This document shows, piece by piece, positions 16,574-27,404 of a DNA stretch of 64,000 bases; within the stretch, counting starts at the first letter, position 1, and every line of letters starts with the position of its first letter. The DNA comes from Alphaproteobacteria bacterium. GTDB lineage: Bacteria; Pseudomonadota; Alphaproteobacteria; UBA2966. Below the pieces are notes generated by a model, which saw only the letters and a list, made by a program, of their open reading frames with translations, did no database searches and was not told where the DNA came from. The stretch is taken from assembly GCA_030740435.1 (NCBI GenBank), contig JASLXG010000094.1, positions 1 through 64,000 of the forward strand. The letters are read 5' to 3'. The position numbers and the translations under genes are program-made.

Positions 16574-17260
16574 ATGGCCCAGAGGCCGAGGTTGCTGCGC
16601 CGCCTGAGGTATTACTTTCTCGCCGGCTTCATCGTCAGCGCGCCCCTCGGCATCACGGTGCTGATCGCCTGGGAATTCATCGCCTTCGTCGACAACCAGA
16701 TCACGCCGCTGATCCCGCCCGCCTACAACCCGGAAAGCTACCTGCCTTTCAGCATTCCCGGGCTCGGCCTGGTGGTCATCTTTCTGGTCGTCACGCTGAT
16801 CGGTTTCCTGACCGCCAGCATCCTGGGCCGCACCATCGTCGGCCTGGGCGAGCAACTGGTCGAGCGCATGCCGGTGGTACGCACCGTCTACGGGGCGCTC
16901 AAGCAGATCTTCGAAACCGTGCTGGCCCAGTCGTCGAAATCCTTCCGCCAGGTGGTGCTGGTCGAGTATCCCCGCCGCGGCCTGTGGGCGGTGGCCTTCG
17001 TGACCAGCACAACCGAGGGCGAGATCGCCCATCTCAGCGCCGATGAACTGGTCAACATCTTCCTGCCGACGACGCCCAACCCGACCTCCGGGTTCCTGCT
17101 CTTCGTGCCGCGCCGCGACCTGGTGGGGCTGGAGATGACGGTGGAGGAGGGCTTCAAGCTGATCATCTCGGGCGGCATCGTGACGCCCCCCGACCCGCGC
17201 CCGGAAGCGCAGCAGGGGGTCAAGAAACTTTTTGTCGGCGCTCAACCAGATACCAGGTAA
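16574..17260 (+). CDS. DUF502 inner-membrane protein
   Basis: A 228-residue protein of the DUF502 family, widespread in proteobacteria and of unknown function. Two transmembrane helices are visible (YYFLAGFIVSAPLGITVLIA near residue 15 and LGLVVIFLVVTLIGFLTASI near 70), joined by the conserved short loop. The soluble part contains VERMPVVRTVYGALKQIFE and PTTPNPTSGFLLFVPRRD, both family hallmarks. The ATG at 16574 follows GGAAAGAG at a good distance; a longer reading starts inside the neighbouring regulatory region and is not convincing. The 3' end overlaps the convergent recG by 19 bases. Confidence 0.9.
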   Translation: MAQRPRLLRRLRYYFLAGFIVSAPLGITVLIAWEFIAFVDNQITPLIPPAYNPESYLPFSIPGLGLVVIFLVVTLIGFLTASILGRTIVGLGEQLVERMPVVRTVYGALKQIFETVLAQSSKSFRQVVLVEYPRRGLWAVAFVTSTTEGEIAHLSADELVNIFLPTTPNPTSGFLLFVPRRDLVGLEMTVEEGFKLIISGGIVTPPDPRPEAQQGVKKLFVGAQPDTR

Positions 17261-19326
17261 GCCACCGCGGCATCGCGTTCGAAAAGATAAAGCAGCACCC
17301 GAAGGGCCTGGCCCCGCGGGCTCGTAAGATCGCCGTCGCGCTCCAGGATCAGCCGCGCATCGTCGCGCGCCGTGGCCAGCAGCTCGCCATGCGCCCCCAG
17401 ATCGGCCAGGCGGAAGGCCGGCAGGCCGCTTTGGCGGGTGCCCAGAACCTCGCCGGCACCGCGCAGCTTGAGGTCTTCCTCGGCAATCAGGAAGCCGTCC
17501 TCGGTTTGGCGCATGATTTCGAGGCGCTGGCGGGCCACCGGGCCCAGCGGCGGGGCGTAGAGCATGAGGCAGCTCGAGGCGGCGGCGCCGCGCCCCACCC
17601 GGCCGCGCAACTGGTGCAACTGGGAGAGACCAAAGCGTTCGGCGTGCTCGATCACCATGACCGTCGCCTCGGGTACGTCGACGCCGACCTCGATCACCGT
17701 GGTGGCGACCAGAATATCCACCTCGCCGGCGGCGAAGCGGGCCATGACCTCGTCCTTCGGGCCGCTCTTCATGCGGCCGTGCACCAGCGCCACGCGCTGG
17801 CCGAAGCGCTGGGCGAGATGGGCCTGGCGCTGCTCGGCGGCGGCCAGGTCGCTGAGCTCCGATTCGGCCACCAACGGGCATACCCAATAGACCCGGGCGC
17901 CGCTGGCGACGTGGCGCTCGAGCGCCCCCACCACCTCGTCCAGGCGCTCCAGCGGCAGTGCCCGGGTTTCCACCGGCAACCGGCCCGGCGGCTTTTCGTC
18001 GAGCCGCGAGGTTTCCATGTCGCCAAACGCCGTCAACGCCAGCGTGCGCGGGATCGGCGTCGCCGTCATCACCAGAAGATCGCAGCGCCCGGCGCCCTTG
18101 GCGCTCAGCGCCAGGCGCTGGTGGACGCCGAAGCGGTGCTGCTCGTCGATCACGGCGAAAGCCAGGTCGGCGAATTCGACCTCTTGCTGGAAAATCGCGT
18201 GGGTGCCCACCAGGATATCGATCTCGCCCGCCGCCAGGGCCCTGAGCGTCGCCGCCCGGCCCTTCTGGCGGCCGCGGCCGAGCAGCAGCCCGAGTTCGAC
18301 CCCGGCGCTCCGGGCTAACGGCTCGAGGCTGGCGAAGTGCTGCCGGGCCAGGATCTCGGTCGGTGCCATCAGGGTGGCCTGGGCGCCGGCCTCGACGGCC
18401 GTCAGCATGGCCAGAAGCGCGACGATGGTCTTGCCGCTGCCGACGTCGCCCTGCAACAGCCGCAGCATGCGGTGCTGGGCCGCCAGGTCGGCGTCGATCT
18501 CGCCTAGCGTGCGTTCCTGGGCGGCGGTGAGCTGGTAGTCGAGCACAGCGATGACGCGCTGGCGCAAGCGACCCTCCGCCCGGGTGGCCCGGCCGGCCCG
18601 GCGGCGCAGGCTGCGGCGCATCAGGGCCAGAGCCAATTGATTGGCCAGCAGCTCGTCATAGGCCAGCCGCGCCCGGGCCGGAGCCAAGGGCTCCAGCTCC
18701 TCGGCCTCGGCCGGGGCGTGGACGGTTTGCACGGCGGCTCGCCAATGCGGCCAGGTTTGCGCCGTTTGCTGTGCCGGATCGAGCCAAACCGGCAGCTCGG
18801 GCAGCTCGGCCAGGGCATCGTTCATGGCGCGCTGCAAGGCTTTGGCGGTGAGCCCGGCGGTCAGCGGATAGACCGGCTCGATGGTCTGGATGCGCTCCAG
18901 CTCGGCCGACTCGCCGATGTGGTCGGGATGGCTCATCTGCAATTCGCCGCGAAAGCGCTCGAGCCGGCCCGAGACCACGCGGCTGGCCCCTTCGGGCAGC
19001 ACGCGCAGCAGGTAATCGGGGCGGGCGTGGAAGAACACCAGCGTGATCTCGCCGCTTTCGTTGTGGCACATCACACGGTAGGGCAGGCGCCGGTTGGCTG
19101 CCGGCAGGTGGGAACCTACCTCGATGGTGAGGGTGGCCACGACACCATCGGGGGCGCTGTCGAGCGGCGGTGAGAAACGCCGGTCCAGCAGGCCGCTGGG
19201 CAGGTGCCAAAGCAGATCGAGCGGTCGTTCCAGATCCAGGCGGGCGGCGGCCTTGGCAATGCGCGGCCCGACGCCGGCCAGGGCGGTCAGGGGACGGAAC
19301 AGCGGAAACAGGATCTCCGGTCGCAT
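17242..19326 (-). CDS. recG: ATP-dependent DNA helicase RecG
   Basis: A 694-residue RecG, which drives branch migration and fork reversal during recombination and repair of stalled replication forks. The N-terminal wedge (OB-fold) domain covers about residues 1-230. Helicase motifs follow: GDVGSGKTIVALLAM (Walker A, about 290), LMAPTEILARQHF (Ia), VIDEQHRFGVHQR (DExH type), MTATPIPRTLALTAFGDM (III), DILVATTVIEVGVDVPEA (V) and LSQLHQLRGRVGRG (VI). The C-terminal SGLPAFRLADL region is typical too. Placement beside sdhE and mfd is a common alphaproteobacterial arrangement. It is divergent from sdhE with 131 bp between. Confidence 0.97.
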   Translation of the reverse strand: MRPEILFPLFRPLTALAGVGPRIAKAAARLDLERPLDLLWHLPSGLLDRRFSPPLDSAPDGVVATLTIEVGSHLPAANRRLPYRVMCHNESGEITLVFFHARPDYLLRVLPEGASRVVSGRLERFRGELQMSHPDHIGESAELERIQTIEPVYPLTAGLTAKALQRAMNDALAELPELPVWLDPAQQTAQTWPHWRAAVQTVHAPAEAEELEPLAPARARLAYDELLANQLALALMRRSLRRRAGRATRAEGRLRQRVIAVLDYQLTAAQERTLGEIDADLAAQHRMLRLLQGDVGSGKTIVALLAMLTAVEAGAQATLMAPTEILARQHFASLEPLARSAGVELGLLLGRGRQKGRAATLRALAAGEIDILVGTHAIFQQEVEFADLAFAVIDEQHRFGVHQRLALSAKGAGRCDLLVMTATPIPRTLALTAFGDMETSRLDEKPPGRLPVETRALPLERLDEVVGALERHVASGARVYWVCPLVAESELSDLAAAEQRQAHLAQRFGQRVALVHGRMKSGPKDEVMARFAAGEVDILVATTVIEVGVDVPEATVMVIEHAERFGLSQLHQLRGRVGRGAAASSCLMLYAPPLGPVARQRLEIMRQTEDGFLIAEEDLKLRGAGEVLGTRQSGLPAFRLADLGAHGELLATARDDARLILERDGDLTSPRGQALRVLLYLFERDAAVAYLVSG

Positions 19327-19457: not shown

Positions 19458-19745
19458 ATGAGCGACAGCGATCCCAGCCCCCATATCGAGACTCTGCGCA
19501 AGCGCTTGCGCTATCAGAGCTGGCACCGCGGCCGGCGCGAAACCGACCTCATGCTGGGCCGTTTCGCGGATCGCCACCTGGCCCATTTCGATGCCGCGCA
19601 GCTCCAGCGCTACGCCGCCCTGCTGGAACTCGACGACGCCGATCTATTCGACTGGGTGAGCCGCAAGAAGGAGCTGCCGGAGAATCTGAAAAGCGACGTC
19701 ATGATGTTGCTGTTGAACTTTAAATTTCACGAAATAACGCCTTGA
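19458..19745 (+). CDS. sdhE: FAD assembly factor SdhE
   Basis: A 95-residue protein of the SdhE/Sdh5 family, which helps attach FAD covalently to the flavoprotein subunit of succinate dehydrogenase. The characteristic segment RGRRETDLMLGRFADRHL contains the RGxxE motif, and the tail has LLELDDADLFDWV. It is encoded just before mfd, with its TGA overlapping the TTG start of mfd, so the two are translationally linked. Sdh structural genes are not in the window. Confidence 0.93.
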   Translation: MSDSDPSPHIETLRKRLRYQSWHRGRRETDLMLGRFADRHLAHFDAAQLQRYAALLELDDADLFDWVSRKKELPENLKSDVMMLLLNFKFHEITP

Positions 19746-22700
19746 TATTAAAAGAAATAAATATCTCTGAATCTGGTCGCTGCACGATCTCCGGCGCCCC
19801 CGACGGCCGGGACTGCCAGGTGCTGGCGGAACTGGTCCGGGAGGCTCGCCAGGCTTCCGGCCAGGGTCTGCTCCACATTGCCCGCGATGAGGCCCGCATG
19901 GCGGCCTTGGCCGAATCCCTGGCCTTTTTCGCGCCCGAGCTCGAGCTCGTTTCGCTGCCGGCCTGGGACTGCCTGCCCTACGACCGCGTATCGCCCAACG
20001 CCGAGGTGGCAAGCCGGCGCATGGACACGCTTTGCCGTCTGGCCGAGGGCGCGGCGCCGGACCTGGTGCTGACCACGGTCAATGCCGCCGGTCAGCGCCT
20101 GCCGACCGGCGACACGGTGCGCGCCGCCACCTTCAGTGCCGGTGTCGGCGACGACATCGACAGCCAGGCGCTGCTGGCCTACCTGGCGCGGAACGGCTAC
20201 GGCCGCACCGGCACGGTGCGCGAGCCGGGCGAGTTTGCCGTGCGCGGCGGCATCATCGATATCTTTCCGCCGGGCCGGGCCGAGCCGCTCAGGCTCGATC
20301 TTTTCGGTGACACCCTTGACGGCGTGCGGCTGTTTGATCCCTTGAGCCAGTTGACCAGTGACCGCATCCAGGAGTTTCGTCTGGAGCCGGTCTCCGAGGT
20401 GCAGCTCGATACCGCCTCCATCGCCCGCTACCGGGCCGGCTACGGCGCCCGCTTCGGGGCCGCGGTGGGCGAGAATGATCCCCTCTACCAGGCCGTCACG
20501 GCGGGCCGGCGCCAGCTCGGCATGGAGCACTGGCTGCCACTCTTTCATGAGCACCTGGAGACGCTCTTCGACTATCTGCCGGGGGCGCCGGTCAGCCTCG
20601 ACCATTTGGCCGACGAGGCGCGCCTGAGCCGCCTCGAGACCATCGCTGATTACTACCAGGCGCGCCAGGCGGCCCGGGCCGGGGGCGAGGAGGGCGTCGT
20701 CTACCGGCCGCTGGAGCCCGAAGCGCTCTATTTGGGTGAGGCCGAGTGGCAGACCCTGCTGGCCGGGCGCCCGGTGTTGACGCTGGCGCCTTTCGACGAG
20801 CCCGACGGGCTCCGGGTGTTTACCGCCGGCGGCCGTCGCGGCCGCGATTTCGCCCCCGAGCGCCAGCGCCAGGAGGCCAATCTTTTCGATGCCTTGGCGG
20901 CCCATATCGCGGCCCAGCAGGCGGCCGGCCGGCGCGTCATGATGGCCTGCTTCAGCGATGGCTCGCGCCAGCGCCTGGCCGGCCTCTTGGCCGACCACGG
21001 CATCGCCGGCGGCCAGGCGGTCGACGACTGGGCCGGCTGCCTGGCCCTGCCGGCTGACGTGCTGGGCCTGGCGGTGCTGGGGCTGGAACACGGTTTCGAG
21101 AGTGCCGAGCTTTGCATCATCGGCGAGCAGGACGTGCTCGGCGACCGCCTGGCCAGGCCGCCCAAGCGCAGCCGGCGGGCCGAGAACTTCATCACCGAGG
21201 CGGCCAGCCTGACGCCCGGCGACTTTGTCGTCCACGTCGACCACGGCATCGGCCGCTTCGAGGGTCTGAGCGCCGTCGAGGTTTCCGGCGCGCCCCACGA
21301 TTGCCTGCTGTTGATCTACGAGGGCGGCGACCGCCTGTTCATCCCGGTGGTCAATATCGAGGTTATCTCGCGCTACGGCTCCGAAAGTGCCGAGGTGGCG
21401 CTCGATCGCCTGGGCGGCAGCGCCTGGCAGGCGCGAAAAGCACGCGCCAAGAAGCGCATTCGCGACATCGCCGATCAGTTGATCGCCATCGCCGCTGCCC
21501 GGCAGCTCCGCCAGGTCGAGGCTATCGAGCCGCCGGCCGGGCTCTACGAGGAATTTTGCGCCCGCTTCCCCTACCACGAGACCGAGGACCAGCGAACCTC
21601 TATCGCCGACGTGCTGGCCGATCTCGCCTCGGGCCGGCCGATGGACCGGCTGGTCTGCGGCGACGTCGGCTTCGGCAAGACCGAGGTGGCCCTGAGGGCC
21701 GCCTTCATCAGCGTCATGAACGGCCGCCAGGTCGCCATCGTGGCGCCCACCACGCTGCTGGTGCGTCAGCACTACCAGACCATCCGCGAGCGTTTCAAAG
21801 GCTGGCCCGTCGAGGTTGGCCGGCTGTCGCGCATGGTCAAGGGAAAGGAAGCTTCGGCAACCCGGGAGGGCCTCGAGGCGGGCCGTATCGAGATCGTCGT
21901 CGGAACTCACGCCCTTTTAGGGAAAAACATCAAATTCAAAGACTTGGGCCTGGTCGTGGTGGATGAGGAGCAGCATTTCGGGGTCACCCACAAGGAGCGC
22001 CTGAAGGAGCTTCGCTCGAACGTCCACGTGCTGACGCTGAGCGCCACGCCGATCCCGCGGACGCTGCATCTGGCGCTTTCCGGGGTGCGTGAGCTCAGCC
22101 TCATCGCCTCGCCCCCGGTCGACCGCCTGGCCATCCGCACCTTCACGCTGCCCTTCGACGCCGTGGTGGTGCGCGAGGCCATCATGCGCGAGCACTACCG
22201 CGGCGGCCAGACCTTCTACATCTGCCCGCGCATCTCCGACATCGACGAGGTTCTGGGCTTTCTCAAGCGCCAGATCCCCGAGGTCAGCGTCGCCGTGGCC
22301 CATGGCCGCCAGAAGGCCAGCGACCTCGACCGCGTCATGAATGGCTTTTACGAAGGCGCTTTCGATGTCCTGGTGGCCACCAACATCGTCGAATCGGGCC
22401 TCGATATCCCCACCGCCAACACCATGATCGTGCATCGCGCTGACATGTTCGGCTTGTCCCAGCTCTACCAGCTGCGCGGCCGCATCGGGCGCTCGAAACT
22501 CAGGGCCTATGCCTATCTGACGCTGCCGGCGCGCCGTCTGCCGACGCCGGCGGCGGAGAAACGGCTGGCCGTCATGCAGGCGCTGGACGGTTTGGGTGCC
22601 GGCTTCAGCCTGGCCAGCCACGACCTCGACATTCGCGGTGCCGGCAACGTTTTGGGCCAGGAGCAGTCGGGCCACATCCGTGAGGTCGGCTTCGAGCTCT

Positions 22701-23224
22701 ACCAGGAGATGCTGGAAGAGGCGGTGGCGGCGGCGCGCCATGACGGCGGTGACGGCGAGGGCGAAGAGGAGCGCTGGTCGCCGCAGATCAACATCGGCAC
22801 TTCCGAGCTCATACCCGAGGCTTACGTGGCCGATCTCGATGTCCGGCTGGGGCTTTACCGGCGCCTCTCACGGCTCGAGGAAAGGGCCGAGATCGACGCC
22901 TTCGCGGCCGAGTTGATCGACCGTTTCGGCAACCTGCCAGAGGAGGTCGAGCACCTCTTGCGCATCGTTGCCATCAAGCAGCTCTGCCGCGCCGCCGGTG
23001 TCGAGAAGCTGGAGGCCGGCCCCCGCGGCGCCACGCTCAACTTCCGCGCCAACGAGTTTGCCAATCCGGCCGGCCTGGTGGCCTTCATCGAAGACCAGGT
23101 CGGCACGGTCAAACTGCGGCCCGACCACAAGCTGGTCTACATGCGCTCCTGGCCCGCCGCCGACGAGCGCTTGACCGGGGCCCAGCGCCTGCTGGTGCAA
23201 CTGGCCGAGATCGCCCAGGAATAG
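19742..23224 (+). CDS. mfd: Transcription-repair coupling factor Mfd
   Basis: A 1160-residue protein that removes RNA polymerase stalled at lesions and recruits UvrA. Domains: UvrB-like region (about 1-400, with LPAWDCLPYDRVSPN and REPGEFAVRGGIIDIFPPG), RNA-polymerase-interaction domain (PGDFVVHVDHGIGRFEGL, about 490), SF2 motor (CGDVGFGKTEVALRAAF about 640, VVDEEQHFGV, LSATPIPRTLHLALSG, NIVESGLDIPTANTMIV), the translocation motif HDLDIRGAGNVLGQEQSG (about 960), and a C-terminal TRCF domain. The start is TTG, overlapping the sdhE stop, without a strong ribosome binding site of its own. Its length matches E. coli Mfd. Confidence 0.96.
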   Translation: MILKEINISESGRCTISGAPDGRDCQVLAELVREARQASGQGLLHIARDEARMAALAESLAFFAPELELVSLPAWDCLPYDRVSPNAEVASRRMDTLCRLAEGAAPDLVLTTVNAAGQRLPTGDTVRAATFSAGVGDDIDSQALLAYLARNGYGRTGTVREPGEFAVRGGIIDIFPPGRAEPLRLDLFGDTLDGVRLFDPLSQLTSDRIQEFRLEPVSEVQLDTASIARYRAGYGARFGAAVGENDPLYQAVTAGRRQLGMEHWLPLFHEHLETLFDYLPGAPVSLDHLADEARLSRLETIADYYQARQAARAGGEEGVVYRPLEPEALYLGEAEWQTLLAGRPVLTLAPFDEPDGLRVFTAGGRRGRDFAPERQRQEANLFDALAAHIAAQQAAGRRVMMACFSDGSRQRLAGLLADHGIAGGQAVDDWAGCLALPADVLGLAVLGLEHGFESAELCIIGEQDVLGDRLARPPKRSRRAENFITEAASLTPGDFVVHVDHGIGRFEGLSAVEVSGAPHDCLLLIYEGGDRLFIPVVNIEVISRYGSESAEVALDRLGGSAWQARKARAKKRIRDIADQLIAIAAARQLRQVEAIEPPAGLYEEFCARFPYHETEDQRTSIADVLADLASGRPMDRLVCGDVGFGKTEVALRAAFISVMNGRQVAIVAPTTLLVRQHYQTIRERFKGWPVEVGRLSRMVKGKEASATREGLEAGRIEIVVGTHALLGKNIKFKDLGLVVVDEEQHFGVTHKERLKELRSNVHVLTLSATPIPRTLHLALSGVRELSLIASPPVDRLAIRTFTLPFDAVVVREAIMREHYRGGQTFYICPRISDIDEVLGFLKRQIPEVSVAVAHGRQKASDLDRVMNGFYEGAFDVLVATNIVESGLDIPTANTMIVHRADMFGLSQLYQLRGRIGRSKLRAYAYLTLPARRLPTPAAEKRLAVMQALDGLGAGFSLASHDLDIRGAGNVLGQEQSGHIREVGFELYQEMLEEAVAAARHDGGDGEGEEERWSPQINIGTSELIPEAYVADLDVRLGLYRRLSRLEERAEIDAFAAELIDRFGNLPEEVEHLLRIVAIKQLCRAAGVEKLEAGPRGATLNFRANEFANPAGLVAFIEDQVGTVKLRPDHKLVYMRSWPAADERLTGAQRLLVQLAEIAQE

Positions 23225-23254: not shown

Positions 23255-23932
23255 CTAGACGGTGGCCGGTTCGCTCGCCGCCGCCTCGGCGTTCTCGCGG
23301 GCCATCAGGTCGAAAAGTTGCAGGAAAGTTTCCGGCTCCTGGGCGCCGAACACCACGTAGCGCTGGGCCACGATGAAGCAGGGCACGGCGTTGACCCCCA
23401 TCTCTCGGGCCGTGGCGTCCTCGCGGGCCACCAGGTCGCGATCGTCACCGCGCTCGAGCAACTCGGCCACCAGCTTGGCATCCATGCCAGCGCTCTCGGC
23501 GATGTCGGTGAGCACGGCGTGATCGCCGATGTCGGCGCCGGCCAGGAAGTAGCGGGCGAACAGATCCTCGACCACGGCATCCTGACAGCCGGCCGAACCG
23601 GCCCAGCGGATCAGGCGGTGACTGTCGGTGGTGTTGGGGGTGCGCTGGATGGCATCGAAGGCGAAGTCGAGGCCCTCGCCCAGGCCGGCCTGGCGGATGT
23701 TTTCGAATACCGCCTGGGCCTGCTCGGGGCCGCCGAATTTGCCTTCCACGTAGTCCTTGCGATCGAGACCGCCCGGGGGCATGTCGGGGTTGAGCTGAAA
23801 GGGCCGCCAATTGAGCACGGCCTTGACGTCGAGCCCTGGGGGCAGGCCCGCCAGGGCGCGTTCGAAGCGCCGCTTGCCGATCAGGCACCAGGGACAGACG
23901 GTATCGGAGACGACATCGATCTGCAGTTCCAT
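23255..23932 (-). CDS. DsbA-family oxidoreductase (FrnE-like)
   Basis: A 225-residue cytoplasmic thioredoxin-fold protein of the FrnE / polyketide-oxidoreductase branch of the DsbA family. The active site is near the N-terminus, SDTVCPWCLIGKRRFE (Cys13 and Cys16). A helical insertion follows, with the conserved NTTDSHRLIRWA. The cis-Pro region is GVNAVPCFIVAQRYVVFGAQ. It has no signal peptide, unlike the second DsbA-like protein at 59068. The partner substrate is unknown; disulfide isomerisation or glutathione-linked reduction has been reported for relatives. It is 21 bp downstream of the PleD-like gene and probably co-transcribed with it. Confidence 0.87.
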   Translation of the reverse strand: MELQIDVVSDTVCPWCLIGKRRFERALAGLPPGLDVKAVLNWRPFQLNPDMPPGGLDRKDYVEGKFGGPEQAQAVFENIRQAGLGEGLDFAFDAIQRTPNTTDSHRLIRWAGSAGCQDAVVEDLFARYFLAGADIGDHAVLTDIAESAGMDAKLVAELLERGDDRDLVAREDATAREMGVNAVPCFIVAQRYVVFGAQEPETFLQLFDLMARENAEAAASEPATV

Positions 23933-23953: not shown

Positions 23954-25288
23954 CTAGCGCATGCCTTCGCGGGCGCGGGCGATCAGGCTTTCGGCATCGT
24001 CGCCGGCCTCGAAGGCGGTGACACCCAGCGACAGCGCGACAGTGATCGGTTCTTCGGCTGCGGCGATGGCCAATTCGGTAAAGCGCACCACCGCGGCGAT
24101 GCGCTGGAGCGCAATCTCGGCCACCTGCAAGGGGGTTTCCGGCAGCACCACCACGAAGGAGCCGCCGGCGTACCGCGCCGACAGGTCCTCGGCCCGCAAC
24201 AGGCCCGAGATCATCGTGCCGATCTGGCGCAGCAGCAAATCGCCGGCCACGTAGCCGAATTCGGCGTTGATGTCGGCAAACAGGTCGATGTCGAAGAAAC
24301 CCACGGCTAGGTGCTTTTGCCATTCCTCGGCGTCGGCGATCTGGCTGGCCAGGTGCTCGTGCAGGAAACCGTGGCTGTAGAGGCCGGTCAGGCCGTCGCT
24401 GGTGACCGGGCGCAGGGACTGCATGAAGACCTTGCGCACGGCGAAGCGGTAGCGCTGCTGGATGATCAGCAATTCCAGCCGGGTCTTGAGATCGTCGGCC
24501 AGGATGGGCCGCTGGATTGGTTCGGTGGCGCCGCGCGCCAATTGCATCTCGTCGGCCTCGAAGACGCCCTCGTCGACGATCACCAGAATGGGCAGGTTAA
24601 AGAGACGGGAATTGTGGCGCACATCGGAGCAGAAGCCGAAAAAATCCTGGTCCTCGCCCTGGGATGCCACGATCAGGCCGTCGACGCCCTTCTCGGTCAG
24701 GGCCGCCATGGTGGCGAAGGGGTCGTCGAGGCGGGCTACCACGCGCTGGCTGCCCAGCGCCTCCTGCAGTTCGTCGAGTTCGGCCGCGTCGCGGCCCAGC
24801 AGTACCACGCGGGCGTCCTCGACCTCGACTTCGGGCGATACCGCCTCGATGTCCTTGATGCCGTATTTTTCCACCGTGAAGATGCGCCTGAGCAGTTCCT
24901 CGTGCATGGTGTTGATGCGCAACAGGGCCTGGAGACGGGCGAAGAGCTGCTGATCGTGGAAATTGGCCGGCAAATAGTCGGCTACTTTGCTGCGGAAGCT
25001 TGCCACCTTTTTTTCGATACCGGCGCTCTCGCCGATCAAGATCACCGGCGCCTGGCGGTTGCGCCAGGTCGTGTGGACAGCATCGGAAAGCGCGCTCCAG
25101 GAACTCTCGGCGGGCAGCGTGTTGACGATGACGACGTCGGGGTGGGCCTTGACGACGGCCTCGACGGCATCGGCTTCGTTCTCCACCTGAATGCAGAAAT
25201 AGTCGTGCTGTTCGAGTTTTGCGGGAAGATCGAAGGGGTGTTCCAGATCGGCATCGTAGACCAGGACCCGGGCCGAATAGCTGGGCAT
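23954..25288 (-). CDS. PleD-like REC-REC-GGDEF protein with degenerate key residues
   Basis: A 444-residue protein with PleD architecture: REC-like domain about 1-125, second REC-like domain about 152-290, GGDEF domain about 295-444. The GGDEF domain keeps DGLTGLY (299-304), GFFDIDLF (metal Asp) and the inhibitory RxxD site (Arg365-Ala-Glu-Asp368), but its signature is AGGSF at 374-378 instead of GGDEF. The phosphoacceptor Asp is Asn56 in the first receiver and Ala208 in the second. It is therefore unlikely to be a phosphorylation-activated diguanylate cyclase and may instead bind c-di-GMP. The ATG at 25288 precedes the first receiver strand; upstream frame extension is low-complexity. Confidence 0.85.
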   Translation of the reverse strand: MPSYSARVLVYDADLEHPFDLPAKLEQHDYFCIQVENEADAVEAVVKAHPDVVIVNTLPAESSWSALSDAVHTTWRNRQAPVILIGESAGIEKKVASFRSKVADYLPANFHDQQLFARLQALLRINTMHEELLRRIFTVEKYGIKDIEAVSPEVEVEDARVVLLGRDAAELDELQEALGSQRVVARLDDPFATMAALTEKGVDGLIVASQGEDQDFFGFCSDVRHNSRLFNLPILVIVDEGVFEADEMQLARGATEPIQRPILADDLKTRLELLIIQQRYRFAVRKVFMQSLRPVTSDGLTGLYSHGFLHEHLASQIADAEEWQKHLAVGFFDIDLFADINAEFGYVAGDLLLRQIGTMISGLLRAEDLSARYAGGSFVVVLPETPLQVAEIALQRIAAVVRFTELAIAAAEEPITVALSLGVTAFEAGDDAESLIARAREGMR

Positions 25289-25458: not shown

Positions 25459-26223
25459 GTGACGGAACCTTTTGCCCTCGAGGGCGTAACCGCCCTGGTG
25501 ACCGGGGCATCCAGCGGCCTGGGCCGGCATTTCGCCCTGACGCTGGCACGCAGCGGCGCCCGCGTGGCGGTGTGCGCGCGGCGCACCGATCGGCTGGCCG
25601 CCCTGGTCGAGGAAATCGAGGACTTCGACGGCCGCGCCATGGCCTTTGCCCTCGACGTCACCGATTCAGCCAGCGTTCACGCCACCGTCGATGCCGCTGA
25701 GACCGAATTGGGGGCGCTGGGCGTGGTGGTCAACAACGCCGGCGTCGAGGTTACCAAGCCGATCATCGAGATGACCGAGGAGGATTACGACCGGGTGCTC
25801 GATACCAACACCAAGGGCGTCTTCATGATGGCCCAGGAGAGCGCCAAGCGCATGATCCAGCACGGCCACGGCGGCTCCATCATCAACGTCGCTTCGGTGG
25901 CTTCGTTCCGGCCCATCAAGCAACTTTCGACCTATTGCATCTCGAAAGCCGCGGTGGCCCAGATGACCAAGGTCATGGCCCTCGAGTGGGCCCGCCACGG
26001 CATTCGCGTCAACGCCATCGCGCCGGGCTACGTCGAGACAGAGATGAACAGAGAGTTTTTCGCCAGCGAACCCGGCCAGAAGATGATCGCAAGCTTTCCC
26101 CGCCGCCGCCTGGGCCGGCCCCAGGACATGGACGGCATGTTGCTGCTGATGGCCTCGGCGGCCGGCGATTTCATGACCGGCAGCGTGGTCCTGGTCGACG
26201 ACGCCATGAGCCTGGCTCTCTAA
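25459..26223 (+). CDS. SDR-family NAD(P)-dependent oxidoreductase
   Basis: A 254-residue classical short-chain dehydrogenase. The cofactor motif is TGASSGLGRHFA near residue 16, followed by VVVNNAGVEV (NNAG, about 92), the catalytic Ser in INVASVASF, and YxxxK in STYCISKAAVAQ. VNAIAPGYVETEMN is the PG motif. ARRTDRL after strand 2 suggests NADP preference (basic residues), which is inference. The GTG start follows GGAG. It is divergent from the PleD-like gene across a 170-bp gap that must carry both promoters. The substrate is not predictable. Confidence 0.9.
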   Translation: MTEPFALEGVTALVTGASSGLGRHFALTLARSGARVAVCARRTDRLAALVEEIEDFDGRAMAFALDVTDSASVHATVDAAETELGALGVVVNNAGVEVTKPIIEMTEEDYDRVLDTNTKGVFMMAQESAKRMIQHGHGGSIINVASVASFRPIKQLSTYCISKAAVAQMTKVMALEWARHGIRVNAIAPGYVETEMNREFFASEPGQKMIASFPRRRLGRPQDMDGMLLLMASAAGDFMTGSVVLVDDAMSLAL

Positions 26224-26251: not shown

Positions 26252-27404
26252 TTACCAGCCGCCGGTGCGCTCCCAGACGGCGACGACCTGGCGGTCGCCC
26301 TCGACCACGTGATAGCGCTGGTACATGGCCGCCGTCAGGCAGGCGTGGATGGGCCTTAGGCGCACCCGGGCGCCGATCTCCAGGTCAGGCAGCCGCGGGC
26401 CGCGGGCCAGGCCGTGCTCCTGGTGGGTGTCGCTGACGGAAAGGCCTTGGAAGAGCCGGTTATCGAGGTCGAAAACCCAACCAAACCCGGCTTCGGGGTT
26501 GAATTCGTCGGCGCCCCGGTCCTTCGAAAGCGCCAGGGCGCCGGCGTCGAGCAGCAGCTGTTCGCTTCCCAGCGGGCCGCCCTGGCCGCGGCGGCCGATC
26601 ACGCTGGCCAGCACCGTGACGGCGATGTCGGCGCCGCCGCAGCTGCCGATCTCTTGTTGCATGACGTCGCCGAACATATAGACGCCGGGGCGCATCTCGC
26701 TGACGCCATCGAGATGCTTGGCAAATACCGCGGTCGGGGTCGAGCCGCCGCTGACCACCGGGCAGGGGAAGCCGGCCGCGGCCAGGCACTCGGCGGCCCA
26801 AACCAGGCCGGCGCGTTCCTGCTCGGCCACGCTTTCGATCTCGGCCCGGCCTCGGCAGTGGTAGCTGTGGCCGGCATGGGTCAAGCACCCCGCGCAGGGT
26901 CAGGCCCGCGTCCTGCAGGCCGCCGGCCACGGCCAGCAGGCGCTCGGCCTCGCCGACCGGCACGCCGGCCCGGTCGCCGCCGCAGTCGAGCTCGATCAAG
27001 ACCTCGAAGTGGCTGCCCAGCGACTGGGCCCGGGCGGCCGCGGCCCGGGCCACCCCGGGATCGTCGAGAATCACCGAAATTCGTGCGTTGTCGCCGCTTT
27101 TGCCCTGTAATTCGGCGACAAAGTCGAGTTTTGCCGGGACGATGCCGACGCCATAGACGATGTCGGTGATGCCATGGCGGGCAAAATAGCGGGCCTCTTC
27201 GAGGGTTGAGACGGTGATGCCGCCGAAATTGCCGGCCACCGCGAGGTGCGCCACCTCGATCGATTTGGCGGTTTTCATGTGCGGCCTGAGCGCCACGCCG
27301 TGAGCTTTCAGGCGCGCCGTCATGGCTTCGGTGTTGTGCCGCAGGCAGCCGCGGTCGAGAATCAGCGAGGGTGTCGGGAGATCGTCGAGGGTCATGGGAT
27401 CCAC
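26252..27404 (-). pseudogene. D-threonine-aldolase-like / DSD1-family PLP enzyme, split by a frameshift
   Basis: Two overlapping frames together give one full-length enzyme of about 380 residues. The first part (27404 to about 26882) has LPTPSLILDRGCL and the PLP-lysine segment LRPHMKTAKS, then ends after GLTLRGVL. The second (from about 26882 to 26252) continues THAGHSYHCRG, CPVVSGGSTPTA and RPGVYMFGD, and the zinc-binding region near the C-terminus. Removing one G on the coding strand at about 26882 joins them as RGVLTHAGHSY. Intact relatives are alanine-racemase-fold enzymes acting on D-threonine, D-serine or 3-hydroxyaspartate. Either a true pseudogene or a sequencing error. Confidence 0.82.

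Follow-up and report, generated by a model that had tools for sequence, protein, structure and literature searches.

A PopA-type REC-REC-GGDEF protein retaining the c-di-GMP I-site and lacking catalytic residues in an alphaproteobacterium of the lineage UBA2966

Introduction

In Caulobacter, the c-di-GMP effector PopA binds RcdA as well as CtrA and delivers the latter to ClpXP primed by CpdR (PMC8973945). The ligand is bound at the RxxD motif with a Kd of ~2 uM, and the A-site is degenerate (PMC12564702). PopA was previously described as confined to Caulobacter and its relatives (PMC8973945); "PopA-like" receptors appear in one published tree (PMC10333796), and a homologue with 25% identity was reported in Hyphomonas (PMC7200025).

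The same domain order, REC-REC-GGDEF, is found in PleD (PDB 1w25, 2v0n, 2wb4, and 9g85), for which the roles of individual residues in the I-site and in the binding of GTP phosphates have been described (PMC7288161). Two recent PleD structures, 9g85 and 9g86, contain ppGpp/pppGpp together with c-di-GMP. Besides PopA, the literature offers PelD and SgmT as proteins in which the RxxD of an inactive GGDEF domain reads c-di-GMP, similar to what is proposed below; however, they differ from the protein described here in domain architecture and ancestry.

In the present study, we analyzed a gene in a stretch of 64,000 nucleotides (hereafter, the window) from contig JASLXG010000094.1 of the alphaproteobacterial assembly GCA_030740435.1 (genome G000).

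Results

The gene occupies positions 23954..25288 on the minus strand and encodes a protein of 444 aa in an intact open reading frame, the ATG start of which is shared by the orthologue L005. A phmmer alignment of the protein with C. crescentus PleD spanned the full length (E ~1e-37), all three folds, REC, REC, and GGDEF, were complete in its AF2 model (pLDDT 85, pTM 0.85), and the top Foldseek match of the model was PleD 9g85 (E 1e-30). These comparisons bear out the full-length architecture given in a preliminary description of this DNA. REC1 (residues 5-140, 24869..25276, minus strand) matched Pfam Response_reg below its cut-off only, while REC2, the adaptor domain (residues 158-296, 24401..24817, minus strand), has no phosphoacceptor, as is also the case in canonical PleD. 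The degenerate GGDEF domain (residues 297-444, 23957..24400, minus strand) was detected with PF00990 (8e-29) and stops before the YxAKxxGRN helix. The score of the protein against the PleD model NF007135 was 217.8 bits, which is below the curated cut-off of 474.

A residue-by-residue comparison with PleD confirmed N56, A208, D333, R365, D368, and the loop AGGSF at 374-378. N56 (25121..25123, minus strand) is equivalent to the phosphoacceptor D53 of PleD, and the preliminary description correctly noted that Asp is replaced both here and at A208. The second replacement is not a special event because canonical PleDs have no Asp at the A208 position either (VN or VS is found there), and we rejected its interpretation as a distinctive loss. 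The list of lost residues was correct as far as it went, and needs to be extended: the acidic pair of REC1 reads D12/A13, with D10, T83, and K105 of PleD changed to A, G, and A, respectively; in the GGDEF domain, K332 is replaced by A; and the C-terminal YxAKxxGRN segment, which contains K442 and R446 of PleD, is gone. The loop AGGSF (24155..24169, minus strand), which takes the place of GG(D/E)EF, contains G instead of the acidic metal ligand E370. Three residues of this region, D333, N341, and D350 (D327, N335, and D344 of PleD), are retained. The loop, the metal-binding D333, and the RxxD motif R365-D368 are all as previously noted. In summary, the protein resembles PleD in fold, domain order, and the equivalents of R359, D362, and R390, but differs in the absence of the phosphoacceptor, K105, GGEEF, K332, and K442/R446, as well as in its position outside the divK-pleD locus.

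A search of contigs returned one close relative only. The family set was assembled from a search of related genomes and a profile search of 385 alphaproteobacterial genomes, which together split off a second REC-REC-GGDEF group distinct from canonical PleD. Among 37 non-redundant members, four of the 148 columns of the GGDEF domain were invariant, namely, R365, E367, D368, and R396, and three of these are the counterparts of R359, D362, and R390 in the I-site of PleD. The primary I-site RAED (R365..D368, 24185..24196, minus strand) has its R, E, and D in 37/37 rows, as does R396 (24101..24103, minus strand), the equivalent of R390. By a naive count, the probability that three named columns fall among four invariant columns of 148 is ~8e-6, and this coincidence is not due to chance. 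Catalytic positions vary: the equivalent of K332 is substituted almost throughout the family, that of D327 is Asp in only 10/37 members, that of N335 is not constant, and the active-site loop reads AGGSF, GNDEF, SGNEF, GPEVF, or other sequences.

R313, which contributes a second-subunit contact to the I-site of PleD, is not conserved (ADA is found there), and the geometry or affinity of binding may therefore differ from that in PleD. The arginines R148 and R178 of the PleD D2 domain are not conserved either, so that the I-site of PleD is incomplete in this family, and R359, D362, and R390 are conserved in active PleD as well. These points would be in line with a catalytically dead scaffold that no longer binds c-di-GMP either, and in which RxxD persists as a structural remnant. 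We regard this as unlikely since it leaves unexplained why RxxD and R396, along with E367, alone stayed invariant after catalysis was lost, and PopA with an identical motif binds c-di-GMP (PMC12564702).

The YxAKxxGRN segment was absent in 40/40 family rows and present in 23/25 PleD rows. Relatives in genomes G002 and G004 read a literal GGDEF, yet they also have no C-terminal phosphate-binding residues. Since the C-terminal loss is common to all family rows, those with a surviving GGDEF among them, it appears to be early: the K442/R446 segment was probably lost first and the loop eroded later, several times. Together with the retention of D333, N341, and D350 in the window copy, the two GGDEF-bearing relatives are what speaks for continued diguanylate cyclase activity in spite of the unusual loop. 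This is very improbable in view of the change of E370 to G and the missing K332 and K442/R446 segment, and even D327 is gone in relatives. The preliminary description would have taken orthologues with an intact GGDEF as a sign of sequence errors in the window. Such orthologues do exist in G002 and G004, but they do not refute the reading of the protein as a former enzyme because the phosphate-binding residues are missing there too and AGGSF is seen again in G001, a second, independent MAG from the same genus (L005/L001, 89% identical). The identical loop in this MAG rules out a sequencing error as the origin of AGGSF. Four family members (L006, L007, L064, and L068) still spell GGDEF or GGEEF; L006 and L007 have no C-terminal GTP-phosphate ligands, and L064 ends short of that region.

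The loss of several functional residues, in a genome seemingly devoid of canonical pleD, might also be expected of a decaying pleD duplicate. The dN/dS ratio was 0.13 between G000 and G001, with the GGDEF domain showing the lowest value of the three domains (0.087), and was 0.03 between G002 and G004. The frame is open, and an orthologue at a single locus has been kept across ~19 GTDB families. The probability of decay is accordingly negligible, and the dN/dS values rule out a pseudogene, in agreement with the previous view that the gene is not decaying.

The gene belongs to a conserved block, SDR / popA / frnE / mfd / sdhE / recG, which was found, with local losses, in the window, in its relatives, and in Caulobacteraceae. 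The SDR oxidoreductase gene (25459..26223, plus strand) is divergent from the popA-family gene, and a frnE-like gene of the DsbA family (23255..23932, minus strand; PF01323, 1.4e-41) follows downstream after a gap of 21 bp. The block continues with mfd (19742..23224, plus strand), a small-protein gene that we take to be sdhE-like (19458..19745, plus strand), and recG (17242..19326, minus strand). In addition, a frameshift near 26,885 interrupts a gene at 26252-27404 (minus strand) that presumably encodes a PLP-dependent protein similar to alanine racemase or D-threonine aldolase; the counterpart in the sister genome reads through without interruption (378 aa; L034 3515-4651). The frameshift reflects either recent damage to the gene or a mistake in the assembly.

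frnE was directly downstream in 27/32 family loci, some of which have no mfd beside it, versus 0/21 PleD loci, and on these figures a c-di-GMP-responsive regulator dedicated to the adjoining FrnE-like oxidoreductase, forming a redox module, initially looked strong. However, in genomes chosen as having no strong popA match, frnE still adjoins SDR and/or mfd with nothing popA-like between; SDR, frnE, and mfd are all present without an intervening popA in L158, L162, L164, L165, and L168. Some popA loci, conversely, have no frnE. Such a module is thus improbable; the adjacency reflects an old conserved gene order, and FrnE, previously named as the partner, is better described as a neighbor.

Caulobacteraceae genomes, which we recognized by a PleD 65-68% identical to that of C. 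crescentus, each contain exactly two REC-REC-GGDEF proteins: PleD and a second, PopA-like protein. The latter has RAED or RTED, a wrecked loop, and a C-terminal truncation as in the window family, and its gene lies within the SDR/popA/frnE/mfd/sdhE/recG block in most of the loci examined. In L105 and L108, both from Caulobacteraceae, the I-site Arg is residue 357, which we take to be the position of the I-site mutant of PopA. In a maximum likelihood tree, in which the root on PleD is an assumption, PleD formed one side of a branch with 100/100 support, and the Caulobacteraceae PopA was nested among the rows of the window family on a long branch (1.51), its exact attachment there being weakly supported (80/36). 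Judged on these paralogues, C. crescentus PopA (CC1842 / CCNA_01918) is similar to the window protein in its REC-REC-GGDEF order, its lost active site, and its RxED I-site. The absence of YxAKxxGRN, the gene block, and membership in one clade apart from PleD are also shared with the Caulobacteraceae protein, which differs in that it retains Asp at the phosphorylation site of REC1, where the window protein has N56. The label PopA rests on the agreement of the Caulobacteraceae paralogue with the published description of PopA rather than on the C. crescentus popA record. From the tree, the shared locus, and this agreement, the window gene, which comes from a Rhodospirillaceae-like alphaproteobacterium, is identified by sequence as a PopA orthologue. 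The earlier designation as PleD-like holds for alignment and fold, but the protein is not a stray PleD.

Regarding the partners of PopA, CtrA is present in the window genome (415 bits), and its C-terminal end, DAKGAA, carries a ClpXP-type Ala-Ala. RcdA (PF07323) gave no match at E<=10 in profile searches of G000, G001, G002, G004, and G015, but was matched in Caulobacteraceae and in many other PopA genomes; it was absent in 10/30 of the genomes with the clearest PopA matches from the 385-genome search. CpdR gave no match at 1e-25 in G000, G001, G002, G004, G005, and G006 with a profile of four sequences, which also misses G367 of Caulobacteraceae and may therefore be of limited sensitivity. 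These absences come from profile searches of draft genomes, which make up most of the set. The window genome and its kin accordingly have PopA and CtrA, with RcdA and CpdR not detectable. G015 (L039/L138) combines PopA, CtrA, and good matches to CpdR with a lack of RcdA, and its CtrA ends in ATGD without Ala-Ala. The parts of the CtrA degradation pathway thus dissociate in differing combinations across the class. A canonical full-length PleD appears to be missing from the window genome, whereas its sister G001 has one beside a DivK-like receiver gene (L154). A further REC-GGDEF-like gene of G000 (L155 4597-5427, G000:C144) is broken across two frames with its middle missing.

Discussion

The best explanation for these results is that the protein is a c-di-GMP effector and PopA orthologue with an output through its REC domains, and we consider this reading likely. 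An enzyme turned phosphorylation-independent effector was already suggested in the preliminary description, and family-wide conservation together with PopA orthology now strongly supports that suggestion. Judging from its residues, the protein would not synthesize c-di-GMP; the GGDEF domain would instead be the input domain, predicted to bind c-di-GMP through the I-site formed by RxxD and R396, and binding would alter dimerization or domain packing. The receiver domains, which are no longer phosphorylatable on the usual Asp, may serve as a protein-binding output, a role already proposed for those of PopA in Caulobacter.

There, PopA acts by handing CtrA over to ClpXP with the help of RcdA and CpdR. 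Neither of these partners was found in the window genome or its closest relatives in the searches described above, and the output in this lineage would therefore have to use another client or direct contact with the protease or CtrA. The I-site input is common to Caulobacter PopA and the window lineage, whereas only part of the known output chain was found in the latter. Binding of c-di-GMP, a REC-domain output, and the nature of the target are inferences; the data best fit an adaptor or scaffold that is gated by c-di-GMP and acts through its receiver domains, and for which CtrA is the first client candidate.

The PopA family now extends to ~19 GTDB families and is wide in Alphaproteobacteria, including genomes in which RcdA and CpdR are not detectable, and its members are recognizable by locus position even at 25-30% identity. 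Relatives that still read GGDEF are liable to be wrongly annotated; a motif-based annotation would call L006 and L007 active cyclases. The family also represents a natural experiment in which the I-site is fixed while the catalytic site drifts. Tentatively, and with rather less confidence than we place in the effector reading itself, PopA may be an old class-wide c-di-GMP receptor, the original job of which was independent of RcdA and CpdR; in the window lineage, it may couple c-di-GMP to CtrA or another client without those adaptors, the use of RcdA being confined to some family members, for example that of Caulobacter.
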